This document shows, piece by piece, positions 19,788 through 63,824 of a DNA stretch of 64,000 nucleotides. The notes below the pieces were generated by a model. That model had not been told where the DNA came from. It searched no databases and saw only the letters and a list, made by a program, of their open reading frames with translations. A program made the position numbers and the translations under genes. The stretch comes from Rouxiella chamberiensis (GTDB taxonomy: Bacteria; Pseudomonadota; Gammaproteobacteria; Enterobacterales; Enterobacteriaceae), in contig NZ_CP114058.1 of assembly GCF_026967475.1 (NCBI RefSeq), positions 1,674,001-1,738,000 on the forward strand, read 5' to 3'. Every line of letters begins with the position of its first letter. Position 1 is the stretch's first letter.

Positions 19788-19849
19788 GAGTTTCCCTTAG
19801 CAAGAGGCAATGCCTCTCAATAATTAAAATGGAGTAATGCGTATTTTTT

Positions 19850-28041: not shown

Positions 28042-28044
28042 CTC

Positions 28045-28439: not shown

Positions 28440-28449
28440 GGGGAACATC

Positions 28450-28854
28450 ATGAAAATATTCCTGATAGCACTATCGGCTCTACTCTTTTCTCCGCTGTCG
28501 TGGGGAGGAAATATGGTCTTTCAGTTCGTAAACCCCAATTTCGGCGGTAATCCTAATAACGGTTCTTTTCTGCTTAATGAGGCCAATGCCCAGAACTCTT
28601 ATAAAGATCCTGACGCCTACGATTTTGATACTTCAACGCCCAGTGCATTGGATAATTTCAGTACCGCACTGCAATCTCAATTACTGAGCGGGTTGATGGG
28701 CAATATCAGTCAGGGCAAACCGGGCCGTCTGGTCACTCAGGACTTTATTGTCGATGTGCAAAATACCGACGGCCAACTGGTCATGAACGTGACCGACCGC
28801 TCCACCGGCAAAACCTCCACCATTCAGGTTCAAGGTCTTACGGCGACCAATTGA
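28450..28854 (+). CDS. csgF: Curli assembly factor CsgF
   Basis: Surface factor tying CsgB nucleation to the CsgG pore; 134 residues from the ATG at 28450, which has AGGGGA seven bases upstream and a signal peptide ending LSWG. The mature N-terminus, [25 protein letters not shown], is the conserved CsgG-binding peptide. An in-frame ATG at 28426 lies within csgE and is not used here. Confidence 0.94.
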
Positions 28855-28876
28855 CTCACCACAGGATAATAAGAAT

Positions 28877-30597: not shown

Positions 30598-30599
30598 TA

Positions 30600-42345: not shown

Positions 42346-42441
42346 TGTAAAAAGCACCTTGTTATTTTTGAGCCTGTTTGCCGACGCAATATCGCCTGGT
42401 GTTGTACGCTCTTGTCGGCCATGACAATGTCTTGCCTGCTT

Positions 42442-43125: not shown

Positions 43126-44387
43126 AGGTATCCCCAATGCTGTAGCGTTTTTATGGTGGTTTCCACGCCGTTTTCCTGCCCTACTTGCTGCCTGAGCCGT
43201 TTCGCACGTTCCACGACGTCGGCAGAAAAGCTTTTGATGAGCGCCGTTTCGATGTCGGCTTCGTCGACGCGTTTAAGGGACAGGCTGCCGCCGCTGACGC
43301 CGAGGTTCTCGAGCTGCCACGCCCAGTAAAATTGATCATAGATAAACGGCATGATGACCTGCGGCGTACCGGCCCTTGCGGCGGCGGCAACCGTACCGCC
43401 GCCGCCGTGGTGAAACACGGTTTTCACTTTCGGAAACAGCCACGCGTGCGAGACGTGATCAACACAGATAACGCCCGGCAGAGTGGCCGCCGCAATCATT
43501 TCCGCCACCAGCGCGCCGCTGCCGCGCACAATGACAGCCCGCACCCCCATATTGCGAAGCACGGCGATGATTTTCTGCGTCAACCCGACGGGATCCGAGC
43601 TGACCATGCTGCCAAAACCGATATAAATGGGCGCCTCGCCTTCGGCTATAAAACGCTCGAGCGCCGGTGAAACGGTCTGGGTCGAGGTGACAGCGCCCTC
43701 CCAGCTGCCGGTGATTTTAATGCTCTCCTCAGGCCATTCGGCGGGACGCGGCACCAGATGCGGGCTAAAGGCATAGAGAATTTTCCGCGCATCGTTGCGT
43801 TTATCCGCCCACGGCCCGCTCCAGCGCCAGTCATTCAGCCCCAGACTGGCGCGGCAGGCGCTAAAGGATTTCGCCACGAAGCGCCACATCACGAGGCGCA
43901 GCAGTTTCCAGACCGCGAGGTTGACAACCCCCGGCAGCCTGATGATTTTATTCAGGAAAAACGGCGGAATGGTGCGCGACGGCGTCAGCGGCGCAAAATA
44001 GGCGGTGACCACCGGAATATCGAACTTTTCGCCAATCGACATTGCCAGCGGTACCGCCTGATTGGCGGCGATGATCAGTCGGCTGCCGCTCGCCGCGGCC
44101 GTTCCCTGCTCCACCCATAGCGACATCAGTTTTTCGACTACACCCGACATCTTTCTGGCCGCCTTGCGCACCGACTCGCCGTCCATCAGATCCTGCTCCA
44201 CCTGCATCGCCTCCGGTAAATCCAGATCCCAGCGGTCGAACCCCAACCCCTCGTCGATAACAAACTGCGCGTTGCGTTCGCCCGACATGATGGAGCATTG
44301 ATGCCCCATCTGTTGCAGCCGCTTGCCCAGCACGATAAACGGGCGAATATCGCCCATCGACCCGGCGGTTATCATAGACACTTTCAT
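43122..44387 (-). CDS. GT1-family glycosyltransferase (MGT/UGT-like)
   Basis: Glycosyltransferase of 421 residues with GT-B fold. The N-terminal acceptor domain starts MKVSMITAGSMGDIRPFIVLGKRLQQMGHQ, typical of sterol/macrolide glucosyltransferases. The C-terminal donor domain has IYIGFGSMVSSDP and the signature VFHHGGGGTVAAAARAGTPQVIMPFIYDQFYWAWQLENLG, with the donor-contacting His-Gly-Gly and Asp-Gln. ATG at 44387 with GAGGGGCGAGC just upstream. It presumably glycosylates a hydroxyl placed by the upstream P450. Confidence 0.9.
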   Translation of the reverse strand: MKVSMITAGSMGDIRPFIVLGKRLQQMGHQCSIMSGERNAQFVIDEGLGFDRWDLDLPEAMQVEQDLMDGESVRKAARKMSGVVEKLMSLWVEQGTAAASGSRLIIAANQAVPLAMSIGEKFDIPVVTAYFAPLTPSRTIPPFFLNKIIRLPGVVNLAVWKLLRLVMWRFVAKSFSACRASLGLNDWRWSGPWADKRNDARKILYAFSPHLVPRPAEWPEESIKITGSWEGAVTSTQTVSPALERFIAEGEAPIYIGFGSMVSSDPVGLTQKIIAVLRNMGVRAVIVRGSGALVAEMIAAATLPGVICVDHVSHAWLFPKVKTVFHHGGGGTVAAAARAGTPQVIMPFIYDQFYWAWQLENLGVSGGSLSLKRVDEADIETALIKSFSADVVERAKRLRQQVGQENGVETTIKTLQHWGYL

Positions 44388-44444: not shown

Positions 44445-45725
44445 TTATCGTTCAGGAATAATGACATTCAGATTTTCAAAACCATGCAGGAAGTTGGAAT
44501 AGTTGCGTTCGGGTTCGTCGAGCACGTTTATCGCGGTGAAGCGCTTTAGGATCTCCTCCCAGATAATCGCCAGCTGCATTTCGGCAACTCGACTTCCTAC
44601 ACAGGCGTGAACGCCCACGCCAAAGGAGAGATGCCGACGGGCGCGGTCACGATCGATGCAGAAGGTATCCGGGTCATCAATTGCGGTGGCATCGCGATTG
44701 CCGGACAGATACCACATCAGCACGCGGTCGCCCTCTCTGATGGTTTTGCCCCGGATCTCTACATCCCGATTTGCAACGCGGCTCATGAAGCTTATCGGCG
44801 TCTGAAAACGCAGGGTTTCAGACACCATGGAAGCCACGAGTTTCGGATTGGCTCTGAGCTTGGCGAACTCCTGCGGGTATTTGTCCAGCCAGTACACACT
44901 GCCCGAGATGGTATTTCGCGTGGTGTCATTACCGCCGATAATCAGCAGCACGATGGTGCCGCGAAACTGCTCCAGCGTCATGTCGCAGGTTTCGGGGTGA
45001 TGCGCCAGCATCGAAATCAGGTCGTGCCCCGGCGGGCCTCGACGGCGTTTTTCCCATAGCGCTTCAAACGCCTGATAGCATTTGATGGTCTCCTGCGCTT
45101 TATGCTCCCAGCTTTTCACCGGCCCTCGTCCCGGCTCGAACATCAGCATGTCGGACCAATACGTCAGTTTGCGGCGATCCTCGAAGGGAAAATCGAACAG
45201 TGTCGCCAATACGGTGGCCGTCAGCTCTTTGGAAACGTGTTCCACCCAGTCAAACGGCTTGCCGATAGGCAGGCCATCGAGAATCATCCCCGCGCGCTCG
45301 CGCAGCAACGGTTCCATGCGAGCGAGGCTCGACGGCCCCATTGCGGGCGTCACCGCCTTGCGATGCTGCGTGTGCTCCGGCGGGTCCATGGTGATAAATC
45401 CGACATTTTTACGTCGTTCATGACCCAGCGCCTTCAGCGCCTTGTCCAGCTTTATCTTCTCTTCAATCGACTTGAGGTCGATATTTTCGGTCGAGGTGAA
45501 ATCGCGATAATTGTTGCCGACGGCGCGAATGTCTTCCCACAGCGTCAGTGACCAATAGGGGCCGAATTCGCTGTCGGGCGTGAAATGCACCGGATCTTCG
45601 CGGCGCAGACGCGCGAAAACCGGCAGCTCGGTTGCCTTGGCAAAACGGTCGCGACGTGCAGGATTAAGCTCGGCCAGCGGCAGCGTGTGAATATCTTCAA
45701 TCTCGACGTGGGTCAGTTCAGCCAT
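44445..45725 (-). CDS. Cytochrome P450, CYP153-like
   Basis: Soluble bacterial P450, 426 residues from the ATG at 45725 (GAGGG about nine bases upstream, one base after the NRPS stop). The heme loop is HLSFGVGVHACVG with the axial Cys, the I-helix is LLIIGGNDTTRNTI, the K-helix ETLR. Several segments (EDPVHFTPDSEFGPYWSLT, DMLMFEPG, MWYLSGNRD) strongly recall CYP153 alkane/fatty-acid omega-hydroxylases, including GGNDTTRN in place of the common AGxDTT. I infer hydroxylation of an acyl chain on the product. Very tight coupling to the NRPS gene. Confidence 0.9.
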   Translation of the reverse strand: MAELTHVEIEDIHTLPLAELNPARRDRFAKATELPVFARLRREDPVHFTPDSEFGPYWSLTLWEDIRAVGNNYRDFTSTENIDLKSIEEKIKLDKALKALGHERRKNVGFITMDPPEHTQHRKAVTPAMGPSSLARMEPLLRERAGMILDGLPIGKPFDWVEHVSKELTATVLATLFDFPFEDRRKLTYWSDMLMFEPGRGPVKSWEHKAQETIKCYQAFEALWEKRRRGPPGHDLISMLAHHPETCDMTLEQFRGTIVLLIIGGNDTTRNTISGSVYWLDKYPQEFAKLRANPKLVASMVSETLRFQTPISFMSRVANRDVEIRGKTIREGDRVLMWYLSGNRDATAIDDPDTFCIDRDRARRHLSFGVGVHACVGSRVAEMQLAIIWEEILKRFTAINVLDEPERNYSNFLHGFENLNVIIPER

Positions 45726-45726
45726 C

Positions 45727-48700
45727 TTATTCACCCTCTCTCTTTTCCACGGTGTTACCGCACAAGTGAAGCCAACATTGCACAAGTTCGGAGACGTGAG
45801 GCGCTTTCAGCACGCTAAAGTGCTGCGCAGGCCCCGAAACGGTCTCGAGTTTTTCCGCCCAGTTTGCCCATCCGGAGGCATCGATATCCCGACGTTCGCG
45901 GTCCTGGTCTCGGCCGTCATCGACGGATCACGCACCTGAACCAGATTGACCTGTCCGTGATAGCGCGAGGCAGGTCGATAGGCAGTCTGTCTTGCAGCCA
46001 GGAAGGTCTGCCACGGCCCCGTCAATAACGGCGGCGAGGCAGGGGTCGGCATTCTGCCGTTTTCTTTGAGATGTTGATGAAGGCTTGCGAGCAGCGCGTC
46101 GATATCCTGACGGGCGTAAATATCCGCGTCGATTGTCAGCGACTGACCCCGCGTATAACCCAGACTCTCGACGTATTCGCGCATGCAGTCGGCAAGCGCA
46201 GGCGTTGAAGCAGGTTCATCCGGGCCAAGCGGCGCTTCGGAATCGACCAGCATCAACGATGCTATGCGCACCTGCTGCGAAGCACTCTGTCGCGCCATCT
46301 CGAACGCCACCTGACCGCCAAACGAATGCCCGAGCAGATGAACGGGGTGTTCGCCACCAAGACCGGCCTGACGTAAGGCGTGCAGATTGCGCGCGGCGGC
46401 GGCTTGCACCGACTGTTCGGGGGTATCAACGCCGTCGAGACCTTTGGCAAGCAGGCCATAGACCGGTTGATTCGCAGGGAGAGCCTGCACCAGCGGCAGA
46501 AAGTCGGTGACGGTAGACCCGGCACCCGCGATGCAAAACAGCGGCGGGAGATGCGCCGCGCCTTTTTGCAGCAGGATAAGCGGGTTGAAATCTGCGACCG
46601 GAGGGGTCGAAGCAGGCGATTCGGCGCAGTTCACCTCCGTCTGCAACGCGCTGGAAGTGAGTGAAAACTGATGGATAGACGCCTGTGGCGCGCTGACCAT
46701 CGCCTCGAGGGTCGCGAGATAACCTTCGACCATCCGCTCGGCGGTGTCGCGGTTAAACAGATCCACGGCATATTCCAGAATGCCGTCCATGCCAAGCGCC
46801 TCGCCGTGTTCGCCGTATTTTTCATACAGCATGTAGTAGAGATCCCACTTGGTATTACCGCTGTGCGCCGGATAGACCTGCGCATCAAGCCCCGGCACCG
46901 CAAAGGTTTCCGACGGCGTGTTTTGCAGGATAAGCATGGTCTGGAACAGCGGATAATGCGCGGGCGAGCGCACCGGCAGCAGCTCCGTCACCAGCTTTAG
47001 GTAGGGAATATCCTGATTTTCGTAGGCGTTAAGCGCCTGCGCGCGCACGCGTTTGAGCACCTCGTCGACACGCGGATTACCGGAAGTATCCACGCGCATC
47101 ACCCACTGCGTCAGGAAGCAGCCCACCAGCTCGCTCAGTGCCTGATCGCTGCGCCCGGCCAGAATTGCGCCCAGCGGAATATCTTCGCCCGCGCCGAGAC
47201 GGGTGTAGAAAATGCCCAACGCCGCCTGCAAAACCATCGACAGCGTCATGGTGTGCGCACGCGCCAGCGCGCTCAAACGCTGATGCAAACCGGCCTCGAT
47301 GCGCAGCGGCACCACTTCGCCCCGATAACTCGGTGTTGGCGGACGCGGTCTGTCCTGCGGCAACGCCAGCGTCGCGGGCACCCCGTCGAGCGTCTTTTTC
47401 CAGTAAGCCAACTGTTCGGCATACAGGCTGTCGGGCTGATTGACGTCGCCCAGCAGCGCGCGGTGCCACACGGCATAATCGGCATAATCCACCGGCAGCG
47501 CGGCAAACGGCGGAGCCTGCCCCGCCAGACGCGACTGGTAGGCCAGCGTCAGATCGCGCGTCAGCGGTGCCAGCGAGAAGGCATCGCAGGCAATATGGTG
47601 GAACAGCATGACCAGCACGTGCGACTGGGGTCCGACGCGCAGGATGGACGGACGAAACGGCAGATCGACCGCCAGATCAAAGACGCGGGTAATGGCGTCG
47701 AACACCGTCTCCCGAACCCGTTCGGCACTGACGTCGATACACGGCACCTCAAGCTCGACCTGCTCGAAAGGGGTGATAACCTGAACCGGCTGCCCTTCCA
47801 CCACCGCAAAGCGGGTGCGCAGCGTTTCGTGGCGTGCCACCAGATCGTTGAGCGCGGCCGTCAATGCTTCCAGGTTAAGCTCGCCCTGCAGCGAAACCAC
47901 GATGGGCGTGTTGAGCGAGGCGTTGTCGCCGCGCGTATTCTGCCCGACCCACATCAGATGCTGGCTGTAGGACACGGGCAGCGGTTGCGGGCGCGGTGCG
48001 ATACGGGCCAACGGCTTGCGCACCCGTTGTTGCGGATTAAGCTGTTTCGAAAGTCCGGCAACGGTCGGATTTTCAAACAGCACACGCACCGGCAGCTCGA
48101 TGCCCAGTCTGGCGCGAATCCGGCCAATCAAGCCGGTCGCCAGAATCGAATGACCGCCCATCGCAAAGAAATCGTCGTCTATCCCTATCTGCGGCTCTTG
48201 CAGCAGCTCGGCATAAAGCTCGCACAGCGCGAGTTCCTGCGCATCGCGCGGCGCGCGATAGTGAGCCGTGTCATTAAATTCCACCGCTGGCAGCGCCTTG
48301 ATATCGACTTTTCCGTTGGCCGTGAGCGGAAACGCCGCCAGCGTGATAATACGCGCAGGCACCATGTAATCCGGCAGACGCTCGCCGAGATGCTCGAGCA
48401 ATGCCGCTTCCGTCGCGGTGCCCTCCACATAGGCGACCAGCCGTTTACCGCCCCCGTTGTCCACCGCCAACACCCGCGCCTTTTCAATCAGGGGGTGTGC
48501 GGCTAAATGGCTTTCGATTTCACCAAGCTCGATGCGAAAACCGCGCAGTTTGACCTGCTGATCGTTACGCCCCATAAACAGCAGATTGCCGTCCGGCCTG
48601 TATCGCACCAGATCTCCCGTGCGATACAGGCGGTTGGCCGCCGAACTGTCGGCCGCGAACGGGTCGGCAATAAAGCGCTCGGCGGTGAGTTCGGGCGCAT

Positions 48701-51449
48701 CGAGATAGCCAAGCGCCACGCCGTCACCGCCCAGATACAGCTCACCCACCGCGCCCAGCGGCACCGGATGCCGATGTTTGTCGAGCACATAGGCGCGGGT
48801 ATTGCCAATCGGACGACCAATCGGAATGCTGCCGCCCTGCGTCGAGACGCCCGCTATCGGGAAGGTGGTGGCAAACGTGGTGGTTTCGGTCGGTCCATAC
48901 CCGTTGACCAGCCTGACCTCGGGATGCGCGCGCAAAACCTGGGCAATAATATTGGAATCCAGTGCATCGCCGCCGATAAACAGCGTCTTGAACTGCGGCA
49001 GAACCGGTGCCAGCTCGCTATAAAGCTGATTAAACAGTCCCACGGTCAGCCACATCTGGTTTACGCGGTGCTGCTTGAGGGCGCGAACCAGCGCAGGCGG
49101 AGACAGCAAGACATCCTGCGCTATCACCACGCAGCAACCTCCCGACAGCAGCGGTGCCCAGATTTCCAGCGTGCTGGCGTCGAAAGCCGTGTTGGCGGCC
49201 AGCGCCATGCGATCGTTTGGGGAAAAATCGCCGACGCCGCTGTTTATCACCAGCCGCGCGATGGCCCGATGCGGCACAACCACACCTTTTGGAATGCCGG
49301 TCGAACCCGAGGTATACATAATGTAGGCCGGGTCCGTGGCCTCGCTCGAGGCGGTCACCACTTCACGGCTTGCGGCCTTGACTTCGACGCTGTCGACATC
49401 CAACACCGGTACCGCCACGTCGTCGGCCAACGTCTGGTCGGCGTCCGTCAGCAGCAGGCGCGCGGCGCAGTTGTCGAGGATCCCGTTCAATCGCGCGGGT
49501 GGTGCCAGTGGATCCAGCGGCACGTAGGTTGCCCCCGCTTTCAGGACAGCCAGCGTCGCCGCCAGCAAGGCACTGCCACGCGGCAACAGCAGCGCCACGA
49601 CATCCTTCGGCTTGATGCCTTCAGCCACCAGCCTGTGTGCCAGCTGATTTGCCCGCTGGTCCAGCTCGCGATAACTGAGCTTAGAGGCATCGTCGATGAC
49701 CGCGATGGCGTCGGGCGTGCGGGCAACCTGTTGTTCAAAAAGACGGTGCACGGTGTCATGGGCTGGATAATCCGTGGCCGTGTTATTCCACGTTGTCAGC
49801 AGTTGTCGGCGTTCGGCGGCAGGCAGAATATCCAGCGCGTGCATCGGTTTGTCCGGCTGGCTCTCTAGCGCCTGCGCCAGACTGCGCATCGTCTGCTGGA
49901 GATAACCCAGGATACGCTCGGCCGACAGAGGTTCTGCCGCCAGCACGTTCAGGCGCAGCGTCTCACCGAAATCATCCACCGATACGGTCAGCGGATAATC
50001 GGTGCGCTCCTCGAAACCGTGCCATTCCACCGCGTCGCGCTCACCCGAGGTATCAATCTGCTCCTCGGCGGATTGTTGGTTGTGGCGATAGTTGAACAGC
50101 ACATTAAAGAGCGGCGTCGGCGGCGCAACGCCGCTACAACGCTGCGCCAGTCCAAGCGACGCATGCTCATGGCTCAGCAGGGCGGCCAGACGTTGATGCG
50201 TGATGCGCACACTCTCTTCAACGCCGACAGAACCCAGGTCGAGACGAAGAGGCAACGTATTGATGAACGGACCCATAATCTGATCGGCCCCTTCTCCTGC
50301 CTGCAAACGGCCAAGCAGGATAGTGCCGAAGACCACGGTGTCGCTGTCGCTGGCGCGCGCCATCACCTGTCCCCACACCAGATGACAGAGGCTGCCCATG
50401 CTGACGCCAAGACGGCGGGCCTGCGCGCGCAGACTGGCGACCAGCACCGGGTCGACGTCCTGACGCCGTTCGACCACGTTGGCGTTGTCCACCGCGCGCT
50501 GCGCAATCCCGAACGGCTGCGTGGGTGCATCGATATCGCCCAGCATCGCGCGGAAAAACTGCGCGTGCTGCGCCTCTGACTGTTCGGTGCGTATTTTGGC
50601 AATCAGGCGACGAAACGGCTGCGCGGCAGGCAAGCGATGTCCCTGCCCCAGCATAAAGGCGCGAATGTCCTGAATCATTATCTGTAACGAGGCGATATCG
50701 TCTATCAAATGGTGTTGCAGCATCACCATTTCCCAGCGTCCGCTGTGCGGGTCTTGTGCCGTAAACAGGCTCAGCAGCGGAGCCTGCGTCAGATCGACCC
50801 GGTAATGCGCCGGGTCATAACGCTGTACCAGTTGCTGCATCACCGGCCCGTGCGCCGGGTCTATCTCGACCTCGACAAGCCGGACCCTGGCCTCGCGCAG
50901 CACCACCTGCGCCGAGGTCGACAAGCCCTGCCACAGGAATGCGGTGCGCAGAATATCGTGGCGATTGACGGTCTGCTGAACCGCCTCGACGTACTGCTGC
51001 ATCACCTCGCGGTTGGCGAGCGACACCTTGGCAAACTGCAAATAAGGGTCGCCCTTGTCGCTCAGTTGATGCAGAAACAGGATCCCCTCCTGCAACGGCG
51101 TCAGCGCATAGATATCCTGAATATTGGCGACCCCGCCCGGGATCCTGGCGACGATGGCGTCAATATCGGGCTGGGTCAGCGTAATCAGCGGCAGCATGTC
51201 AGGCGTCAGGGCGCGCGTTTGCGGCGTAATGCGATTGGCCGGGGCGTTCGCACCCTGTCCGCCCGACGCGGAGAACAGGTTGCCCTCCCGCAGGGCGGCA
51301 ACCAGCGAAGGTTTGTGCTCACGCAATGCCGCCTTGATTTCCGGGGTCAACGACCCCTTTGCTGCCTTGATGACCAGAGATTCACCCTCCAGCGTCAGGG
51401 CGATGCGGGCATCATCAAGCGTGGTTAACAGGTCATCGAATCCCATCAT
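45727..51449 (-). CDS. NRPS protein 3: docking-C-A(Val)-PCP-C-TE (frameshift near 3' end)
   Basis: Final assembly-line protein, about 1907 residues after repair. Domains: TubC-like N-terminal docking (1-55), condensation (about 110-540, HHLIDDIAS at 246), adenylation (about 560-1055), carrier (MGGHSILA, about 1120), second condensation (about 1180-1610, HHIACDAFS), thioesterase (about 1650 on, LLGHSFGG). Reading the ten A-domain pocket residues by eye gives DALWFGGTFK, close to valine codes such as DAFWIGGTFK. The frame as given leaves the conserved path after MTAE; a missing G near 45909 explains it, and repair continues as DQDRERRDIDASGWANWAEKL to a TAA at 45727. Its ATG overlaps the stop of protein 2. 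Confidence 0.93.
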
Positions 51450-54400
51450 ATTCTCATCTCGTCCAGTTCAACGGTGCGTTCGGACAGCTCGGCCAGCGTC
51501 GGGCTTTCAAACAGCGCACGGATTTCGATACTCATGTCGCGCTGACGCAAATGCTCCATCAATTGCACCGCCAGCAGCGAATGACCGCCCAGCTCGAAGA
51601 AGTTGTCGTGACGACCGATGCGCTCCACGCCCAGCAACTGCTGCCACAGTTCGGCCATCACGATTTCGACCTCGCCCTGCGGCGCGGCGTAGGTGCGACG
51701 AAAGAAAGAGGCATCGTCGGGCAGCGGCAGCGCCTTGCGGTCCAGCTTGCCATTGGCGGTCAGCGGCAGTTCGTCGAGTTTGACGAAGGCGGCGGGCACC
51801 ATATAGTCAGGCAACCGGGCGGCCAGCTTGCTGCGCCATTCGGCAATGTATTCGGAAGTGCTCAATCCTTCGGCAGCGGCTGCCACCACCACATAGGCGA
51901 CCAGCCGCAGATCGCCCTGCGCATCTTCGCGGGCCACCACGACGGCGTCCCTGATGGACGGCTGTTTCTGCAACGCCGCATCGATTTCACCCAGCTCGAT
52001 ACGGAATCCGCGAATCTTGACCTGATTGTCGTTACGGCCGAGATACTCGATATCGCCGTTGGGCAGGTAACGCGCCAGATCGCCGGTGCGGTACATGCGT
52101 GCCCCGGCCTCGGAGACAAACGTATCTTTCAGGAAACGCTCGGCGGTAAGGTCGGGACGATTAAGATAACCGCGCGCCACGCCTACACCGCCGATGTACA
52201 GTTCACCGACCACGCCCGCCGGAACCGGTCGCCTATGCTGGTCGAGCAGATAGATGCGCAGGTTGGCAATCGGGCGGCCAATCGGCACCGTTGCCGTGGC
52301 GGGCAAATCCTGCGGACAGGTCCACGACGTCACATCGATGGCGGCTTCGGTCGGTCCATAGAGGTTATGCACCACGGTGAGCGGCAGCACGTTATGACAG
52401 GCCGCCACGCTTTGGGAACTCAGCGCTTCGCCGCTACAGACGATTCGGCGCAGGCTGCGGCAGGCGGTTGCGTCATCGCTTGCCAGGAACAGGTTGAGCA
52501 TCGACGGCACAAAGTGAAGCGTGGTGATGTTATGGGTCTGGATAACCTGCGCCAGCGCACGCGTGTCTTTGTGCGCGCCCGGCGGGGCCACGACCAGCGT
52601 CGCACCGACGGAGAGCGGCCAGAAGAATTCCCACACCGACACGTCAAAGCTGAAGGTGGTTTTTTGCAGCACGGCGTCGCTGGCGTCGAGCTGATAGGCT
52701 TCCTGCATCCATTGCAGGCGGTTGATTAATCCGCGATGTTCGTTCTCGACGCCTTTTGGCTTGCCGGTGGAACCGGAGGTATAAATCACGTAGGCCAGAT
52801 TGCGGGCGGTCAGGCCTAGCTCGTCCGCAGACAGCGGCGTGGTCGGCAAGTCGGAATTCGCCAGCCATTCGGCATTCAGCTCGAAGGTCGCGACGCCTGC
52901 GGTATCCAGCCCGGCCGTGACTTCACACCCGCGCGGGTCGAGCAGCAGCAGCGCCGGAGCGGCGTCCTGCAGAATATAGGCCAGTCTTTCCTGCGGATAA
53001 TCCGGGTCCAGCGGTACATAGGCACCGCCCGCCTTGAGGATCCCCATCAGACCAATCACCATCTCGATGCTGCGATCCAGACACAGCGCCACGCGGTCAT
53101 CCGGTTTGACGCCCTGACGATGCAGATGGTGCGCCAACTGGTTCGACACCGCGTCCAGCTCGCGGTAACTCAGGGTACGGCTGCCAAAGCGCAGCGCCGG
53201 TGCCTGCGGCGTCCTTTGCACCTGCTGCTCGAACATCTGGTGCGTGTAGGCCACCTCGGGATAAACGCGGGCGGTATCGTTCCACTGGTTCAGCAGCAGA
53301 TGGCGCTCCGCGGCGGGCAGAATATTGATCTGTTCCATCGGCGTATGCGGGGCTTCCTCCAGCGCCTTCGCGATGTTTTCGAGGGCGTGCTGCATGTAGC
53401 CAAACAGCAATTGCGGATCCAGCGACTCGACCACCTGAATGTTCAGGCCCAGCGCGCTGCCGTAATCGTCCACGGACAGCGTGATAGGATACGTGGTGCG
53501 CTCCTCGAAGCCGTCCCACTGGTCTGCTTCGGGAACCACAAAGTCCAGCGACTTGCTTTCGGATTCGCGATTGTGGCGATAGTTGAACAGGGTATTGAAC
53601 AGCGGCGTCGAGCCGGTCATGCCACTGCAACGCAGCGCCAGCGCCAGCGAAGCATGTTCATGACTCAACAGTTCGGCGAGACGCTTATGGGTGGCGCGGA
53701 CGCTCTCTTCGACGGTGGCGCCCGCCATATCCAGACGCAGCGGCAAGGTGTTGATAAACGGCCCCATAATCTGGTCGGCACCGTCACCGGCATGCATGCG
53801 GCCAAACAGAATGGTGCCGAACACCACGGAATCCTGCCCGCTGAGACAGGACAGCACCTGTCCCCAGGCCAGGTGGCAGATACTGCCGAGACTCACTCCC
53901 AGTCGGCGCGAATAGGCGCGCAGCACATCATTGAGGCGCTGCGGCACCTTGCGGGTGACTTCGATGATGTCGGCGTCGTCGAGCATGTTCACCAGCCCGT
54001 ACGGCGTGGTCGGCTCCTCGATATCGCCCAGCGTCGAGCGGAAATAGCGCTCGTGCTCCTGCGGGCTTTTCCCGAGACGCACCTGCGCAATCAGGCGGCG
54101 GAAAGGTTGCGCCTCGGGCAGTTGATGTCCGCGACCCGCAAGGAAGGTATGGATTTCGGAAGAAAGGATCAGCACCGAAGTAATGTCATCAATCATATGA
54201 TGCAGTACGCGGAACATCTCGTAGCGTTCTGCCTGCCTGTCATAGGCCATAAAGGCGTGCAGCAGCGGTGGTTTGGCCAGATCGATGCGGTAGTGTGAAG
54301 GATCGAATCGTGCCGCAAGCTGTTCGGCGACAGGCCCGTCGGCAGGGTCCAGTTCGACCTCGAGCACGTGAAGGCTGGCCTGACGCTGCACCACCTGACA

Positions 54401-54931
54401 CGGCGTCGATACGCCTTCCCAGTAAAATCCGGTGCGCATGATGTCGTGACGATCGACCACTTTCTGCACGGCGGCGAGATAGTTATCGACTTTTTCGCGG
54501 CTGTCGAAGCTCATCTGCCCCGTTTGCAGGTATGGGTCGCCCTTGCTTGCCAGCATGTGGTGGAACAGAATGCCCTCCTGCAACGGTGCCAGCGAATAGA
54601 TATCCTGAATATTGGCAACGCCGCCGGCAACCTGCTCCACCACGTGGTCGATATCGCTCTGGGTGAAGTCAATCAGCGGCAGCAGTTCCGGGGTGATGGC
54701 GGTGGTCTGCGGCGTAATTTTATTGGCCGGAACCACCACTTCGAAGGCGCTCGACAGACGACGGCCGTTGCGCAGTGCATGGACCATCGTCGCCTTGTGC
54801 TCGCGCAGTGCGCTTTTAATCTCGCTGGTCAGCGCCCCTTTGGCAGCCGTGATAACCAAATCCTCGTTATCCAGCGAGATCGAGATTTTTGCCTCTTCAA
54901 GGGTCAGCAGTAACTGTTCGAAATCGCTCAT
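51446..54931 (-). CDS. NRPS protein 2: docking-C-A(Ser)-PCP
   Basis: Single-module NRPS of 1161 residues from the ATG at 54931 (GGAG eight bases upstream; the longer frame further upstream is not coding). Domains: TubC-like docking (MSDFEQLLLTLEEAKISISL start), condensation with VLHHMIDDITS, adenylation with TSGSTGKPKG and NLYGPTEAAIDVT, and carrier ELGGHSLLAVQ. The A-domain pocket reads DVWHVSLIDK, one change from the serine code DVWHLSLIDK. It overlaps protein 3 by four bases, so the two are translationally coupled. It accepts the chain from protein 1. Confidence 0.93.
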   Translation of the reverse strand: MSDFEQLLLTLEEAKISISLDNEDLVITAAKGALTSEIKSALREHKATMVHALRNGRRLSSAFEVVVPANKITPQTTAITPELLPLIDFTQSDIDHVVEQVAGGVANIQDIYSLAPLQEGILFHHMLASKGDPYLQTGQMSFDSREKVDNYLAAVQKVVDRHDIMRTGFYWEGVSTPCQVVQRQASLHVLEVELDPADGPVAEQLAARFDPSHYRIDLAKPPLLHAFMAYDRQAERYEMFRVLHHMIDDITSVLILSSEIHTFLAGRGHQLPEAQPFRRLIAQVRLGKSPQEHERYFRSTLGDIEEPTTPYGLVNMLDDADIIEVTRKVPQRLNDVLRAYSRRLGVSLGSICHLAWGQVLSCLSGQDSVVFGTILFGRMHAGDGADQIMGPFINTLPLRLDMAGATVEESVRATHKRLAELLSHEHASLALALRCSGMTGSTPLFNTLFNYRHNRESESKSLDFVVPEADQWDGFEERTTYPITLSVDDYGSALGLNIQVVESLDPQLLFGYMQHALENIAKALEEAPHTPMEQINILPAAERHLLLNQWNDTARVYPEVAYTHQMFEQQVQRTPQAPALRFGSRTLSYRELDAVSNQLAHHLHRQGVKPDDRVALCLDRSIEMVIGLMGILKAGGAYVPLDPDYPQERLAYILQDAAPALLLLDPRGCEVTAGLDTAGVATFELNAEWLANSDLPTTPLSADELGLTARNLAYVIYTSGSTGKPKGVENEHRGLINRLQWMQEAYQLDASDAVLQKTTFSFDVSVWEFFWPLSVGATLVVAPPGAHKDTRALAQVIQTHNITTLHFVPSMLNLFLASDDATACRSLRRIVCSGEALSSQSVAACHNVLPLTVVHNLYGPTEAAIDVTSWTCPQDLPATATVPIGRPIANLRIYLLDQHRRPVPAGVVGELYIGGVGVARGYLNRPDLTAERFLKDTFVSEAGARMYRTGDLARYLPNGDIEYLGRNDNQVKIRGFRIELGEIDAALQKQPSIRDAVVVAREDAQGDLRLVAYVVVAAAAEGLSTSEYIAEWRSKLAARLPDYMVPAAFVKLDELPLTANGKLDRKALPLPDDASFFRRTYAAPQGEVEIVMAELWQQLLGVERIGRHDNFFELGGHSLLAVQLMEHLRQRDMSIEIRALFESPTLAELSERTVELDEMRI

Positions 54932-55034
54932 TTTGTAATCTCCGTGATGAAAGCCGGTAAGCCCTGATATTGTTGATAAGGTAATGCCACGAAACGCGTA
55001 AGGTCGTGGTGCTGCCATTCTGGACGTAAAGTGT

Positions 55035-58000
55035 TCAAAGTCGTGTCTCCGCAAGCTCGAGCGTTTTGGCCGCAAGGTCTGCCAAAACGGGCGTATCAAA
55101 TAAGGTGCGTATTTCGATGCTGAGCCCTTTACGGCGCAGCTGTTCAATCAGCCTCACGGCCAGCAGCGAATAACCGCCGAGTTCAAAGAAATGGTCCTGA
55201 CGCCCGACCTGCGGAACACCCAGCAACTCCTCCCACAGCAATGCCATCGTGGTTTCGATGCTTCCCTGCGGCGGGGTGTAGGCGCGACGGGCGAATGCCA
55301 CGTCGTCGGGTGCCACCAGCGCGTTGCGGTCAATCTTGCCGTTGGGCGTCAGCGGCAGGGCGTCGAGCATCACGAAGGCGGCGGGCACCATATAATCGGG
55401 CAAGGTCTCCTGAAGATGCCTGCGCAGAGTCTTGCGGCCAAACAGGCTTTGCACCCTGCTCTTGAAGGTCGCGAGATGTGTCAGCGCCGACTGCGCATTC
55501 TCGGGCACCAGCCAGTCCACCAGGCAGGCCACTTCGTTGACGCCGATTTCACGCAGCTGTTCGGCCACGGCCAAGGCGGATTCCGGCGTGCCGATAAACG
55601 ACAGCTCGCGGGTGTAACGTTTGAAGGCAAACTCCAGCAGGCTTCGTTTATCGTCTTCGCCAAGCGCCTCGAGGTTGATATCCTGCTCTTTCAGCCAGCA
55701 GGAGAGCAGGCTGAGATGCCCCTGCAAATAGTCCAGGAACGGACCTTTGGCCTGCTGCAATACCTCGTCGTGGTCGGCCCCGAGGTAGGTGTGGATCATC
55801 ACGGTTACCGTGCCGGTCAGCGGGTCATAACCGGCCTTTTCCCGCGCGGCGCGATAAATATCGATGTGGTCGGCAAGCCCCTGCATGTTCTGGGTGAGCA
55901 TGTGGGTCAGTACATTCGCGCCCGTACTGCCCGCATAGGCAAAGGTTTCGGACGTGCCCGCCGCGGTTATCCACAGAGGCAGGCTCTTCTGCACGGGTTT
56001 CGGGTAAATCTCCACGGCAATCTCATTGTCGTGGCTGTCCAGGCGCGTCACGCTGCCGCCCTGCCACAAGGTGTTCAACGCGTCGATGCTCTGGCGCATC
56101 ACGTCTCGGCGCGCGCGATAGTTATGCGGAGCCAGCACGAAATCCTGCTGATTCCAGCCCGACGCAATTCCCACGCCCACGCGGCCATTTGACAGGTTGT
56201 CGACTATCGACCAGTTTTCGGCGATCGTCACAGGGTCGTGCAGCGGCAGCACCACACTCCCGGCGCGCAGCTGGATGTTGCGCGTACGACTGGCGAGCGA
56301 GGCATGAAGCAGCGCAGGGTTGGCGTAGAGGCCGCCCACGCTGTGAAAATGGCGTTCCGGCGTCCATATCGCCGTAAAGCCGTGCTGGTCGCCAAACTCT
56401 GCCGCCTCGGCGAAATCCTGATACCCCTGACGGGCATCGCTGGTCGCGCCAAAGAAGAACAGGCTGAAATCGAGATTGTCTGTGGCAGGCGCGTGATCCT
56501 CGGCTCTCTCTTCGAGGGAGCGCGGCACCACATAGGCCACCAGACGGGTCGCACCGGCCAGATCGTCGCGAGCGACCACCACGGCCTCCCGCACCAGCGC
56601 ATGGCTTTGCAGACGGGCTTCAATCTCCTGAAGTTCGATGCGATGACCGCGCAGTTTCAACTGGCTGTCGGTACGCCCAAGGTAAATCAGCCGTCCGTCG
56701 GCCATAAACTGCGCGAAATCACCGGTGCGGTACAACCGCGCCTCGGGGTCGCGGGAGAAGGGATCGGCGATAAACCGCTCGGCAGTGAGCTCGGGGCGCG
56801 CGTGGTAGCCACGCGTGACACCGTCACCTCCGATATACAACTCACCGATAGCGCCCAGCGGCACGGGATGGCCGTTGGCGTCCAGCAGATACACCTGAGT
56901 GTTGGCAACAGGACGTCCAATCGCCTGGTTGTAGCGGTCGACGTCGTCGGCCTCGACCCGCTGGCAGGTTGACCAGATAGTCGTTTCGGTCGGGCCGTAG
57001 AGGTTCCACAGCGACTCGCCAAAAACATGCAGACGTCGCGCCAAATCGCTTGGCAATGCTTCGCCGCCGCAGAGAATTTTCAGCTGCGGATGCGGCGTGG
57101 CATCGGCATCGACCAGCGCACGCCACGTGGTCGGCGTGGCCTGCATGATGCTGATGGCCGCGTCCTGCAACAGCACCAGCAGCGCATACGGGTCTCTCGC
57201 CTGACTGCGGCTCGCCAGCAGGATGGAAGCGCCGGTCATCAGCGGCAGATACAGCTCCAGCCCTGCGATATCAAAGGAAATACTGGTGACCGACAGCAGG
57301 CAGTCTTTCGGCGTCAGGTTGAACAGCGCCTGCATGCCCGTCAGGAAATTGCCAACCTGCCGATGCTCGACCATAACGCCTTTCGGCTGACCGGTGGAGC
57401 CCGAGGTGTAAATGACATAGGCCAGATGCGCGGAGGTCAGCGCCGCCACGCGCGGATTGGTCGCAGGCAGAACCGCCAGAGACTGCGCCTCGTCGTCCAG
57501 ATTCAGGCATGTCAGCGAAGGTGCGCTTTCCGCCGTCAAGACCTGACTGCCGCGGGCGTCGACCAGCAACGCTTTCGGACGGGCATCCTCCAGAATGTAG
57601 GCCAGCCGTGCTGCGGGATAGTCGGGGTCAAGCGGCACATAGGCCCCGCCAGCCTTGAGGGTCGCCAGCAAGGCAATCAGCAGGGTTTCACTGCGATCGA
57701 TGCAGACCGCGACGCACACATCCGGCCCGACGCCCAGCGCAATCAGTCGATGCGCCAGTTGATTGGCCCGCTGATTCAGTTCGGCATAACTCAGGCGCAC
57801 CTCGCCCATTCGCAGCGCCACGGCGTGAGGCTGTTTTTCCGCCTGCTGCTCGAACAGGCTGTGAATCGTCGCCGCGTTCGGGAAAGGCAAGGCCGTTGCA
57901 TTGAAGTCGCCAAGCAACCGCTGGCGCTCGTCGGCGGGCAGCACGTTCAGCTGATGGAGTGAAATCGACGCCGAAGCAGGCGGCATCGCGGCTTCGAGCG

Positions 58001-61000
58001 CGGCTACCAGACTGTGAATACTTTCGGTGAAATAGCCCGCAATGCGCGCACTTGAGAGTGATTCGACGGCCTGAATACCGACCTCGAGCTGGTTGCCGAC
58101 CTCGTCTATCGAGGCGGTAACCGGATAGTGAGTGCGCTCCTCGAAGCCGTGCCACGTCACGCCATCCTGCTCGATGGGACCCAGCACATCGATATCGGTC
58201 GGGCGGTTGTGTCGATAGTTCAACACCGCGCTGAACATCGGCGTGGGCGACACGATACCGCTGCACTGCTGGGCCAGCGACAAGGTCGCATGTTCATGTT
58301 TTATCAGGGCGCTCAGGCGCTGATGGGTGAGACGCACGGCGTCTTCGACAGCCCCTTGCCCCACATCCAGTCGTAGTGGCAGCGTGTTGATGCACGGCCC
58401 TAGAATCTGCTCGCTGCCCTCGCCCTGCATACGCCCCGACAACACGGTGCCGAAGACCACCGTTTCGCGCCCACTGATCGCGCCCATCACCCGCGCCCAG
58501 CTCAGATGACAGAGAGAGCTGACGCCCACGCCAAGACGGCGGGCCTGATAGCGCAGCCGTTGCACCCATGTGGCGTCCAGCGTCTGACGGGTTTCGATAA
58601 TGCGCAGCCCCTGAAGATGCCCGCCCTTGAGATTGAAAGGCACCGTCGGTTCGCTGACATCGGCCAGCATCGCGCCGAAAAATGCCCGCTGCGCATCGGT
58701 ATTATCCTGTCCCTGCAACGCGGCGACATGGTGGCGGAACGGCACCGCAGGCGGCAGGCTGCTGCCCTTGCCGGTCAGAAACGCCTGAATGTCGGCGAGC
58801 AGAATCTGCAGCGAGGCCAGATCTTCGACCAGATGATGCAGATACATCAGCGCCTGCCAGACATCCTGGTTCGCGGTCATAGGCCACGACCATCTTCAGC
58901 AGCGGCGGCTGCGCCAGATCGATACGGTGAGATTCGGGTGCATGACGCGCCTTGAGTTGTTCGACTATCGATCCCTGGGCCGCATCGAGATTTACCTCTT
59001 CGACGTGCAGACAGGCGTGGCGCAATACCACCTGCACCGGTTTCTCCAGCCCCTGCCAGATAAACGCGGTGCGCAGCACATCGTGACGTTCAATCACCCG
59101 CTGCACGGCGTCTAGATAGTTATCGAGCGTAGTGCGCTGCGCAAAGGACAAATGACCGCATTGAAGATAAGGGTCACCCTGCTGTTCCAGCAGATGATGG
59201 AAGAGTATGCCCTCCTGAATCGGGGCCAGCGCGTAGATATCCTGAATATTGCCAAGACCGCCGGAGACGCGCGCCACCAGGCTGTCGAGCTGGGGTTGAG
59301 TCAACGACACCAGCGGAAACAGCGCCGGATGCAGCGAGGGGGTTTCGGGGGTCAGCAGCGTGGCCGGTACGGCTTTTTCGGCGCAAACCGGCGGTTCAAG
59401 GGCGATGTGGGTCGCCAGGTCGGCCAGCACCGGATATGCGAACAGCGTCGGCACATCGGTATACAGATTCAGGTCGCGCAACTTTATCCGCAGTTGCATC
59501 GCGAGCAGCGAACTGCCGCCCAGCTCGAAGAAGTTGTCCTGACGCCCTACCTCGCCAACGCCCAGCATCTCCTGCCAAAGTTGCGCCAGCGTGGTTTCGA
59601 TTCCGCGATGCGGCGCGTCGAAGTCACGTTGCAGATAGGCACGGCTGTCAGGCTGCGGCAATGCCTTGCGATCGATTTTGCCGTTGGCAGTCAGCGGCAG
59701 CGAAGACAGCATCACAAAGGCGGCCGGGATCATATAGCTCGGCAGTTGCGTGGCGAGGATTTCACGCCACGGGCCGATAACCTCATTGCCGCAGACCTCG
59801 TGCGGCACCACATAGGCGACCAGACGCGGTTCGCCGCCGTCGACGGTCAGTCCGACCACCGTGGCTTCTTTTACCTGCGGCAGCGCGGCGAGACGGGATT
59901 CTATCTCGCCGAGTTCGATGCGGTATCCACTCAGCTTTATCTGATGGTCGCGACGGCCGAGAAACTCGATGCGGCCGTCCTCGAACCAGCGTCCAATGTC
60001 CCCGGTGCGATAGACTCTGCCGCCCGCTACCCAGGGATCGGCGATAAAATGTTTGGCCGTCAGGTCGGGACGATTGACATAACCGACCGCCACGCCCTCG
60101 CCGCCTATCCAGATTTCACCCGCCATGCCCGGCGCACAGAGCTGGCCCAGCGTGTCGACCACGTACATGCGGGTATTGGCAATCGGCCGGCCAATGCTCA
60201 GGCGATTATCCTGCTGCGGCTCGGCATCGCGCATCCACGCCGACGACATAATGGTGGTTTCTGTCGGCCCGTAGCCATTGATGTAGCGGCAGCGCTCACT
60301 CCAGCGCTCGATAAGCGCGGGGGTTGGCGCGGAACCGGCGGTCAGCAGCGTCATGCCCTCCGGCACGCGCGACGGATCCAGATGTGCAAGATAAGGCGGT
60401 GGAAACGCAGCGAAGCGGATGTCGTGTGCATTCAGGTATTCGCTCAACGCCGGAGGGTTCTGAATCAGCGCGTTCGATAACAGATGCAGTTCACAACCGC
60501 GTGTCAGGGTGCCGAAAATCTCGCCCGCCGAGGCATCAAAGGTATAGGGCGCAAACTGCATGATCGGCTGACCTGCGCTGAAAATCCCGAGGTCTTCACA
60601 CCAGCCGCAGAAGTTAATGAGATTACGATGGCTGATTTCCACGCCCTTTGGCGTGCCCGTCGTGCCGGAGGTGTAAATGATATAGGCGATGGTCTGCGAA
60701 TCCACAGCCGCCGTTGCCACGTGGGTTTCGTCCGTCCGGTCGTTCGCGATAAAATCATCGACGAACAGCAGATTGCCGCTCTCTTCTTCGGCAAAGCTTG
60801 CCCGCGAGGCCTGCGTGGTTAAGGTCCAGCGAACCTCTGCGTCTTCAAGAATAAATGCCCGGCGCTCGCGCGGCGCATCCAGCGCGATCGGCACATAGGC
60901 GGCCCCGAGTTTGATAATGCCAAGCATGGCGGCGATCAGGTCGGGCGTTTTCTCCATGCTGAGCACCACGCGATCCCCCTGCGCGACGCCCGCCTGCTGC

Positions 61001-61905
61001 AAGCCTGCGGCTATCTGCGCGGCGCGGTCGGCAAGCTGGCGATAACTCAGGCAGGCGTCTTCGGCCACCAGCGCCCGCGCGTCTTGTCTGGCAGCGACCT
61101 GATCCTCGAACAGCGCATAGAGAGAGCGCTGCAAATCCAGCTCTAACGCGGTCGCATTCCAGTGATGAAGCACACGATCGATTTCATGAGTGTCGAGCAT
61201 TGTCTGTTCGCGCAAGGTGCGCGTCGTGCCTTGGGTGAAGCTCGTCAGCAGCCGTTGTAGACGGTGCAGAATCTCGAGCGCATCATGATGGGAAATTTCC
61301 CCGGCGCGATAACTTAGCTCAAGTGACAACGTCACGCCTGCATGCAGCGTAAGTTGCACAGGCGCATCGTCCATAGCGTCGCGTTCCTGTGTTTCACTCA
61401 CGGCGATCAGCGAGTCAAACAGCGGTTGTTCGGCAGTTTTTCCCGCTGCGCGAAGCAAATCCTGCTCATCGATTTCGGCATGGTCCCGGTGCGCGTCTAG
61501 GCGGGTCGTCAGGGCGCAAAACCATTCACCCAGCGCGAGATGGCCGTCAATGGCGATGCGCAGCGGCAGCGCCTGACGTTCCCCCGTGAGGCTGCTGACA
61601 ATGCGCTGACCAAACAGCACCTCGTCTTCCCCGCTGTATTTAGCCAGCAGCAGGCTCCACGCCGCGCTTAACAGCACATCGAGCGTGATTGACGCCTGCT
61701 TGACGAGGGCCAGCAGCGCACGATTTACATCCGGTGCCATGTCCACCGTGACCCTGCCCGCCTCGTGCGACGAAGAATCGACCTCGTCACCCACGCCTTG
61801 CAGCGCGGCATTACGGGTTCGTTGCGCACCGGCAAGATAGGTTTGCCAGTACTTGCGGGCCGCGTCTTTGCGCGACAGGCGAGTCTCTTCCTGCATCAAC
61901 GTCAT
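55035..61905 (-). CDS. NRPS protein 1: half-C-A-PCP-C-A(Gly, with luciferase-like monooxygenase)-PCP (one-base frameshift)
   Basis: Two-module NRPS, about 2289 residues after repair. Residues 1-270 look like only the C-terminal lobe of a condensation domain (YWQTYLAG start, no HHxxxD). A1 (about 285-775; pocket DAGALAGIMK, unassigned) and PCP1 (LGGSSLLA) follow. C2 contains LHHLVEDLAS. A2 has pocket DILQLGLIWK, the glycine code. Between its A8 end (RLVAYVV, near 56520) and LPDYMVPAAF (near 55395) sits a luciferase-like monooxygenase domain (about 55430-56480), starting NLDFSLFFFGATSD with the flavin-type WTPERHF. PCP2 is LGGYSLLA. An extra base at 58870-58871 breaks the frame in C2. Overlaps the acyltransferase gene by four bases. 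Confidence 0.92.
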
Positions 61906-63755
61906 AATGATGCGCCCTCCATCACAGGGTGTTCAGCGTGTTTTTCCAGTGCCGTCAGCAGGCTGGAAAGGCTCTCGACATTGCGGCCAAACTGGTTGAT
62001 CACGGCGCCGTGGCAGAGCTTTTCGGCAAAACCGTATTTAAGGAAGGTCGAGAGCGTGCCGGTCGGACTGAGATCCACATAAAAGGCGCGGTCCTTCCCG
62101 GCAAGCGACGTCATCAAGCCATGAAAATCCACGGGATTTCGCAGCACGCGCCAGAAATAGTCGCCGTCCCATTCTGCGACCGGTTTTCCCGACATCGCCG
62201 AATAAACCGGCAGGCTGGCCGCCTGTTTCGGCAGAGTCTCGACGAGTGCGCGGAACTCAGGTTCGATGATGTCGATACCGGCAGAATGAAACGGCTGCTC
62301 GACCGGCAGCAGCATGGAGATAATCTCGCGCTGCGACAGTTGCTCCTTGAGCGCCGACAGCGTGGCCAGACTGCCGCTGACCACAAAGTTTTTCTGGAAA
62401 TTGAGGCTGGCGAGTTCCGTGTGCTGATACAGCGCGGCATTCGCATGGAAGTGTTCGATCGGGGCCAGCACGCTCATCATGCCGCCGCCCGCCGTCTGTT
62501 CACTCAGCATCCGCGCCTGACTCACCACAAGCTTCATTGCATCGTCCAACGTCAGCACCCCGGCCACGACCGCCGCAATACATTCACCGAGGCTATAGCC
62601 CATCACGCCGCCGGGCTGGATGCCTTCGGCTTTCAGCAGGCCGGTCAGGCTGACGCCGAGACTCAACAGCGCCGCGCTGGACAGCACGACGTCGGAAAGC
62701 GGCATCTGGCGACGGGTGTCGTCATACAGCGCCTCGAGCAGACTGTTGCCGGTGTGCTTGCGGTACAGCGCGTCGCAATGTTCCATCTGCGCGCGAAAAA
62801 CCTCGTGACGACGATAGAATTCTTGCCCCATGCCGTAATACTGTGCGCCCTGACCGCCATACATAAAGACCACGGGGCGTTGACCTGAGCTTTTCTCGGG
62901 CACAAACGGCTGTGCCTGGATTTTCTTGAACAGGTTGGTCAATACCTGTCCCGGACCGATTTCTCGCAGTTCGACTTCGCCCTGCGCCAGCAGAGAGGAA
63001 AGGCTTTCATACCAGCGCACCGGATGGCTTATCTGGCGTGTCAGCAGGTCGAGATAGTCGGTCGTCGGATAGTCTTGTGCCGTGTAGTTGGAGATAACCC
63101 GCGAAGTCAGCGGATTAAAGGTGAAACCCTGCGCAAACTGGTTGAATTGTTGTTCGATGTCGCGCAGATAGCGGGAGTGAAAAGCGGCAGAGACGTTAAG
63201 GAGGATGTAACGCCCGCCCGCCTCGGCAAACAGGGTCTGCGCCGCCGTGATGTCATCACGCAGCCCCGAAATCACGATTTGCTGCGCACTGTTGATATTG
63301 GCGATATCAATGCCGGTAAACGGCGAGGCGGCCAGCAATTCGGCTACGCGCGACTGCCCCAGACCCAGCACGGCAGCCATCGCGCCACGCGGTGCGCTCG
63401 CCATCAGCCTGCCGCGCTCTTTTACCAGCGCAACGCCGGTCGCGAAATCAAAGGCACCGGCCGCGAACAGCGCCACGAACTCGCCGAGGCTGTGGCCTGC
63501 ATAACACTCCGGCGCGGCGCGGCCGTCCTCGCGCTCGGCCAGTAACGCCAGTGCCGAAACCACAAACAGTGCAGGCTGGGTGAATTGCGTTTCTCCAAGC
63601 AACCCTTGCGGGTCTTCCACACACATTTCGCGAACCGAATAGCCAAGCACTGCATCGGCCTGTTTAACGAGATCGGGAAAACGCTCAAACAGTTCATTTC
63701 CCATCCCTTTGTACTGCGATCCCTGACCAGGAAATACCCAAATTGAAGAAGACAT
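61902..63755 (-). CDS. Tandem trans-acyltransferase / acyl hydrolase
   Basis: Two fused FabD-like domains in 617 residues. The first (IWVFPGQGSQYKGMG, active site AGHSLGEFVAL, later VSAAFHSRYL) is a normal malonyl-transferring AT. The second (VVFMYGGQGAQYYGMG, GYSLGECIAA, then PVEQPFHSAGID) has GYS in place of GHS, as in the acyl-hydrolase partners (PedC/AH type) of trans-AT polyketide systems. The ATG at 63755 has AAAGG about seven bases upstream; a TTG at 63779 is the alternative. It stands after the ACP gene. Its presence means AT-less polyketide modules should lie to the right of the window. Confidence 0.9.
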   Translation of the reverse strand: MSSSIWVFPGQGSQYKGMGNELFERFPDLVKQADAVLGYSVREMCVEDPQGLLGETQFTQPALFVVSALALLAEREDGRAAPECYAGHSLGEFVALFAAGAFDFATGVALVKERGRLMASAPRGAMAAVLGLGQSRVAELLAASPFTGIDIANINSAQQIVISGLRDDITAAQTLFAEAGGRYILLNVSAAFHSRYLRDIEQQFNQFAQGFTFNPLTSRVISNYTAQDYPTTDYLDLLTRQISHPVRWYESLSSLLAQGEVELREIGPGQVLTNLFKKIQAQPFVPEKSSGQRPVVFMYGGQGAQYYGMGQEFYRRHEVFRAQMEHCDALYRKHTGNSLLEALYDDTRRQMPLSDVVLSSAALLSLGVSLTGLLKAEGIQPGGVMGYSLGECIAAVVAGVLTLDDAMKLVVSQARMLSEQTAGGGMMSVLAPIEHFHANAALYQHTELASLNFQKNFVVSGSLATLSALKEQLSQREIISMLLPVEQPFHSAGIDIIEPEFRALVETLPKQAASLPVYSAMSGKPVAEWDGDYFWRVLRNPVDFHGLMTSLAGKDRAFYVDLSPTGTLSTFLKYGFAEKLCHGAVINQFGRNVESLSSLLTALEKHAEHPVMEGASL

Positions 63756-63824
63756 AAATCGCCTTTTACTGTTTCCCAAAATGACACGTTTCGTGAGTTA
63801 TCTGTCCCGCAGGTTGTGACCCGT

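Follow-up and report, generated by a model that had tools for sequence, protein, structure and literature searches.

The 64,000-nucleotide stretch of the Rouxiella chamberiensis genome analysed here (contig NZ_CP114058.1, positions 1,674,001 to 1,738,000; hereafter the window) carries the solanimycin (sol) cluster, solanimycin being a known antifungal antibiotic. One of its non-ribosomal peptide synthetase (NRPS) genes, solF, encodes a glycine-specific adenylation (A) domain that is interrupted by a luciferase-like monooxygenase (LLM). Very probably, the locus is the SolF glycine module, in which the LLM hydroxylates glycine bound to the peptidyl carrier protein (PCP) domain and the chain, without being cleaved, goes on to SolG and SolH. 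This interrupted module is an already published system: the LLM insertion in SolF of Dickeya solani, and its contrast with MtaG and MelG, where the insert lies between a4 and a5, have been described (PMC10204066). The initial annotation of the window was correct in its observation, and its claim of novelty falls away.

Layout of the interrupted glycine module

The second part of solF is an open reading frame (ORF) on the minus strand (55035–58880), in which Pfam profiles find a partial condensation (C) domain, an A domain, the LLM and a PCP domain, in that order. The parts of the module are as follows (hidden Markov model, HMM; flavin mononucleotide, FMN; AlphaFold2, AF2).

55446–56507, minus strand: FMN-dependent LLM inserted in the SolF glycine A domain (TIGR04020, gap in the A-domain HMM, AF2 model)
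56508–57854, minus strand: A-domain core with motifs A1–A8 and code residues DILQLGLIW (Pfam AMP-binding and AMP-binding_C; code)
55317–55445, minus strand: rest of the A-domain C-terminal subdomain, with A9 (LPDYMVP) and A10 (NGKIDR, code residue K) (motifs, A-domain HMM)
55068–55238, minus strand: PCP domain (LGGYSL), end of SolF (Pfam PP-binding; motif)
58005–58859, minus strand: later part of the glycine-module C domain, HHLVEDL motif (Pfam Condensation, profile positions 131–430; motif)
58891–59244, minus strand: first part of that C domain in the other reading frame (Pfam Condensation, profile positions 2–121, in ORF 58702–61905)

Within ORF 55035–58880, AMP-binding covers residues 343–693, AMP-binding_C 752–791, Bac_luciferase 805–1115 (E 4.9e-44) and PP-binding 1215–1271. 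The insert boundaries were drawn with an A-domain HMM built in the present analysis from 185 sequences, which ends at residue 791 (column 450) and restarts at residue 1146 (column 453). The insert is residues 792–1145 and lies between motif A8, which starts at residue 735, and motifs A9 and A10, which start at 1160 and 1180. With the K contributed by A10, the pocket code reads DILQLGLIWK. Both the exact glycine code and the complete LLM between A8 and A9, placed by the initial annotation within 55400–56540, are thereby borne out. The profile search it had proposed also gives a match: TIGR04020 (seco_metab_LLM; cut-off 244.45 bits) scores 427.4 bits over residues 805–1129 and profile positions 1–329 of 341. 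Because 2,316 of the 7,994 candidate proteins scored match residues 775–1175 at E <= 0.001, the placement of an LLM between A8 and A9 is not due to chance.

Cluster identity and published product

SolG exceeds the cut-off of the NCBIfam model NF041803 (2,581 bits against 2,200; ORF 51446–55147, match from ORF residue 73), and P0245, the SolF of R. chamberiensis (2,289 residues), matches both solF pieces (1,012 and 1,277 residues) at 100% identity; the cluster is therefore that of solanimycin. The second solF piece is 71–74% identical to SolF of Dickeya and Pantoea, and SolG is 99.7% identical to its closest database protein, P0121. The order of the SolF orthologues, A-PCP-C-A(ox)-PCP, is recovered by Pfam across the two solF pieces. 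SolF of D. solani MK10 and that of R. chamberiensis share this architecture, the glycine module, the a8–a9 insertion site and the cluster, while the window copy differs from P0245 in being divided by a frame change. The neighbouring genes of the cluster are also present (the trans-acting acyltransferase SolE upstream; a cytochrome P450, a hydrolase, a hydratase and an efflux transporter downstream). The window stops at 64000, just beyond solE, and the genes from the solA polyketide synthase (PKS) to solD would lie outside it.

In D. solani, solF is required for activity, as published. Solanimycins A and B are one oxygen apart, and tandem mass spectrometry (MS-MS) located this oxygen on the glycine alpha-carbon; alpha-hydroxyglycine was deduced by liquid chromatography with MS-MS to be kept within the solanimycin B chain; and both compounds continue with five dehydroalanine (Dha) residues and a valine-derived end (PMC10204066). 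Two Dickeya strains have a SolF that lacks about 500 residues including the monooxygenase, according to PMC9765074. The initial annotation had left two outcomes for the glycine. That alpha-hydroxyglycine may remain inside the peptide agrees with solanimycin B; that the chain is cut midway does not agree with a product that continues past glycine. Its expectation of further NRPS proteins downstream was right, these being SolG and SolH.

Taken with the domains, code, conserved LLM columns, predicted fold and cluster identity established here, these data are consistent with a scheme in which (i) the SolF A domain would activate glycine and load it onto the adjacent PCP; (ii) the upstream C domain would couple glycine to a polyketide-derived amino-acyl group; (iii) the inserted LLM, with FMNH2 and O2, would hydroxylate PCP-bound glycine at the alpha-carbon, probably not every time, so that solanimycin B with alpha-hydroxyglycine and solanimycin A with glycine would both arise; and (iv) the chain, uncleaved at glycine, would pass to SolG, which would use serine five times with dehydration to Dha, and then to SolH, which would use valine. 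We infer that the LLM itself is the hydroxylating agent, that it uses flavin and that hydroxylation takes place at this stage; R. chamberiensis presumably makes the same product as D. solani. A retained acyclic alpha-hydroxyglycine is rare, spergualin being the only other case found by the authors of PMC10204066. SolF offers a ready system for studying an LLM that is embedded in an A domain and acts on carrier-bound glycine without chain breakage.

Fold and conserved residues of the LLM

The AF2 model of the LLM has a predicted local distance difference test (pLDDT) score of 86, and comparison of this model with solved LLMs recovers the luciferase-like fold. Its best match in the PDB is the LLM domain of PuwE (6ket), which shares 40% identity with the SolF LLM and a template modelling (TM) score of 0.90 across the domain. 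By its PDB title, 6ket is the monooxygenase domain of a PKS/NRPS hybrid; a literature search found no paper on its structure. All 68 of the 68 columns conserved at 95% or more, which were chosen by conservation and not mapped as flavin contacts, are kept in the SolF LLM. A model of the whole interrupted A domain (five rows) reached a pLDDT of only 35.3, and was discarded and not used.

Three points weigh against the proposed reading of the locus: (i) the SolF-type LLMs deviate at five otherwise conserved columns (residues 910, 996, 1027, 1095 and 1102); (ii) no flavin reductase was found among the 35 predicted proteins of the window that were searched with Pfam (pieces of split genes counted separately), a search that covers the window only; and (iii) the window sequence breaks the frames of solF and solH, and as written solF would not yield the full protein.

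Two insertion sites of LLMs in A domains

The comparison set yielded 204 LLM placements in 203 sequences, namely 192 database proteins, nine genome ORFs, one plasmid ORF and the SolF piece from the window. The placements come from lists ranked by likeness to the SolF LLM and bounded by protein length, and are no census: 100 lie between A4 and A5, 88 between A8 and A9, and 16 are other or incomplete. The 16 do not enter the comparison of sites (nine unclassified, four scripted as 'between A domains' and three with one side unseen). A glycine-type code occurs in 100 of the 100 A4–A5 insertions and in 65 of the 88 A8–A9 insertions, the rest of the latter having another code (18) or an incomplete one (5). 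The 18 non-glycine cases are P0002, P0005, P0007, P0008, P0011, P0012, P0014, P0026, P0029–P0034, P0054, P0248, P0266 and P0278. Their codes include several of the VDxxxSxxDK type, which we take to be beta-alanine-like, or DFWNIGMVHK, presumably Thr-like. Since the A4–A5 site is glycine-only in this sample and the A8–A9 site is not, the second site may tolerate swapping of the substrate-choosing core, which could guide engineering. This contrast between the two sites and the non-glycine A8–A9 cases are a useful addition of the present comparison, although no literature search was aimed at the contrast itself.

A C domain follows the PCP in 23 of 88 A8–A9 cases and 6 of 100 A4–A5 cases, a thioesterase (TE) in 3 and 2, respectively, and the PCP is last in 53 and 86, the remainder being other or not found. 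The TE counts are low bounds, because a single sequence underlies the TE model and many of the proteins are incomplete. A simple rule by which A8–A9 insertions retain and A4–A5 insertions cleave the chain was rejected, as these counts give it no support.

The LLM tree, made by a quick method with only Shimodaira–Hasegawa-like approximate likelihood ratio support (SH-aLRT) and subject to long-branch warnings, has 144 rows, including 45 of the 100 A4–A5 rows. The SolF rows form a fully supported clade of 13 rows. The branch uniting the 88 A8–A9 rows has a support of 89 and includes P0296, a row outside any A domain found, while an 84-row core has a support of 99. On this tree the A8–A9 LLMs lie apart from the A4–A5 LLMs, and the insertion site changes once or twice. 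The second change depends on one locus, L096 (genome G407), in which Pfam and the A-domain HMM find an A8–A9 LLM insert, the code DILQLGLVWK and a PCP followed by a C domain. L096 stands outside the 88 A8–A9 cases used for the counts of site, code and architecture. Its LLM has a long branch and falls elsewhere in the tree than the other A8–A9 rows, and with L096 counted as A8–A9 the free tree requires two site changes instead of one. An approximately unbiased (AU) test does not reject a single clade of all 89 A8–A9 rows (p 0.826; the tree holding them together scored higher), which is no proof of such a clade. A separate origin of the A8–A9 insertion in L096 is possible.

Comparison with other hydroxyglycine systems

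As in SolF, the glycine A domains of MtaG and MelG (myxothiazol and melithiazol) house a flavin monooxygenase, and glycine is alpha-hydroxylated; unlike SolF, their insert lies between a4 and a5 and the product is cleaved to an amide (PMC10204066; compared by description). Skyllamycin resembles solanimycin B in its retained alpha-hydroxyglycine, but there a stand-alone flavin monooxygenase acts in trans (PMC10204066). In Gammaproteobacteria, the corallorazine-like crz clusters of Serratia and Pseudomonas (38 pathways) have a monooxygenase (MOx in A2) in a glycine A domain as in SolF, whereas truncated linear products are predicted for them (PMC11342130).

One alternative is that the SolF LLM acts as in MtaG and MelG, the hydroxylated glycine giving a carbinolamide that breaks and frees a terminal-amide chain midway. 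The LLM family and the glycine code are common to both, a TE comes right after the PCP in at least the three A8–A9 relatives counted above, and the products predicted for the crz-like clusters are of the kind that such release would give. For D. solani, however, it is contradicted by solanimycins A and B, which run on past glycine to their valine-derived end. SolF has no TE directly after the glycine module; its PCP ends the protein, and SolG and SolH follow. A C domain is next in the same protein in 23 of the 88 A8–A9 relatives, and the LLMs of the two sites occupy separate branches of the tree. We therefore regard midway release as very improbable. The parallel with MtaG and MelG drawn by the initial annotation holds for the glycine code and the LLM family, but not for the site (HMM columns 450–453, A8–A9) or for the position on the tree.

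An oxidation of another target by the LLM (the polyketide-derived part, a nitrogen, or a Baeyer–Villiger step) seems just as remote. PMC8739492 describes LLMs of PKS lines as alpha-hydroxylases and in chain-shortening steps of the Baeyer–Villiger type, and 18 of the 88 A domains with an A8–A9 LLM have non-glycine codes; against this, MS-MS places the extra oxygen of solanimycin B on the glycine alpha-carbon (PMC10204066). Hydroxylation of carrier-bound glycine by the LLM is the reading that we prefer.

Distribution of the arrangement

Of 394 genomes sampled across the order, 3 have an LLM like that of SolF (E <= 1e-40); of 392 sampled from the GTDB family to which a Photorhabdus genome belongs, 11 do. 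In seven of these 11 the LLM lies within an A domain: two have it between A4 and A5 and five between A8 and A9, including two SolF proteins (76 and 73%); the other four have LLM frames of 386–401 residues. A scan of genome contigs was dominated by ordinary NRPSs (76 loci) and was not used for counts. The view of the initial annotation that the arrangement is uncommon in Enterobacterales holds for this species sample (7 of 392 family genomes). It does not hold for Dickeya, in which just over 100 of 382 genomes have the sol cluster, with further carriers among Pantoea, Erwinia and Rouxiella strains (PMC9765074); glycine A domains that contain a monooxygenase are also reported for Serratia clusters (PMC11342130).

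Possible exchange of A cores

The A8–A9 LLM might be a portable alpha-hydroxylation unit that takes new A cores, its lineage not being bound to glycine; we put this forward tentatively, as a possibility that is rather doubtful. P0002 (code DPRHFVYRAK) and P0256 (DILQLGMIWK) share 88% identity in the LLM, 85% in the A9–A10 piece and 87% in the PCP. Identity between their A cores is just 40%, the pattern that an exchange of the core would leave. Seven pairs with differing codes were picked by visual inspection of the tree; in every one, the A core (39–47%) is less similar than the LLM (59–88%). The PCP tracks the LLM in one of the seven pairs only; in the other six it stands at 31–53%, against 59–73% for the LLM. 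If the LLM is portable in this way, LLMs in domains with the VDxxxSxxDK code, presumably beta-alanine-like as assumed above, would yield isoserine.

Frame breaks in the window

ORFs 58702–61905 and 55035–58880 are in different frames and meet within the C domain of solF.

58860–58890, minus strand: solF reading-frame change (ORF coordinates and Pfam edges; an intact relative aligns by tblastn in frames -2 and -3)

The single 'NRPS protein 1' of the initial annotation is accordingly not one reading frame, the break having been read through. Four genes outside the cluster also extend over two ORFs each: ydbH (5386–6087 and 6445–8046), an alginate lyase gene (9824–10564 and 10104–11159), an FGGY kinase gene (30600–31187 and 31127–32125) and a short-chain dehydrogenase/reductase (SDR) gene (29799–30482 and 30007–30669). 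A suspected break in hrpA was rejected, as tblastn aligns the gene in a single minus-strand frame.

A true pseudogene, with the module a relic in this strain, could explain the frame change in the solF C domain and the likewise out-of-frame C-terminus of solH. However, six genes are broken within 64 kb and only two of these belong to the sol cluster, which makes assembly indels the likelier cause of the solF split. An intact SolF with 100% identity (P0245) is known for R. chamberiensis, and the publication of an R. chamberiensis genome sequenced by Nanopore only, which may or may not be the record of the window, cautions about frameshifted pseudogenes (PMC10353361). We consider a pseudogene unlikely.

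Neighbouring genes and other features

The remaining genes of the sol cluster in the window are as follows.

61902–63779, minus strand: solE, two acyltransferase-type domains (trans-acting acyltransferase / acyl hydrolase; Acyl_transf_1 and fabD, two stretches each)
58702–61905, minus strand: first part of solF, A (code DAGALAGIMK)-PCP-start of C (Pfam, code; first 1,012 residues 100% identical to R. chamberiensis SolF)
51446–54931, minus strand: solG, C-A-PCP with Ser-type code DVWHVSLIDK (NF041803; code)
45807–51449, minus strand: solH, C-A(DALWFGGTFK)-PCP-C-TE (Pfam, code; C-terminal frame change near 45900 against one relative)
44445–45785, minus strand: solI, cytochrome P450 (Pfam p450; 88% to the G717 relative)
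43122–44387, minus strand: glycosyltransferase between solI and solJ (EryCIII-like_C, Glyco_transf_28; 81% to the gene in the same place in the G717 relative)
42442–43137, minus strand: solJ, metallo-hydrolase (Lactamase_B)
41803–42357, minus strand: solK, MaoC-like hydratase (MaoC_dehydratas)
40319–41740, minus strand: solL, multidrug and toxic compound extrusion (MATE) efflux transporter (MatE)

The first SolF A domain (residues 266–749 of ORF 58702–61905) has the code DAGALAGIMK; PMC10204066 assigns it no clear substrate either. The glycosyltransferase after solI is absent from the D. solani MK10 arrangement, and R. chamberiensis 130333, listed among the sol carriers, is singled out for it (PMC9765074). 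As pure speculation, this enzyme might cap alpha-hydroxyglycine and thereby stabilise the carbinolamide.

Elsewhere in the window, curli genes lie at 26261–29707 (curlin repeats 26261–26728, a LuxR-type regulator 27361–28041 and csgG 28877–29707), and a block at 14815–20734 with an ATP-binding cassette (ABC) transporter and a homocysteine S-methyltransferase is about 76% identical to Rahnella plasmids.
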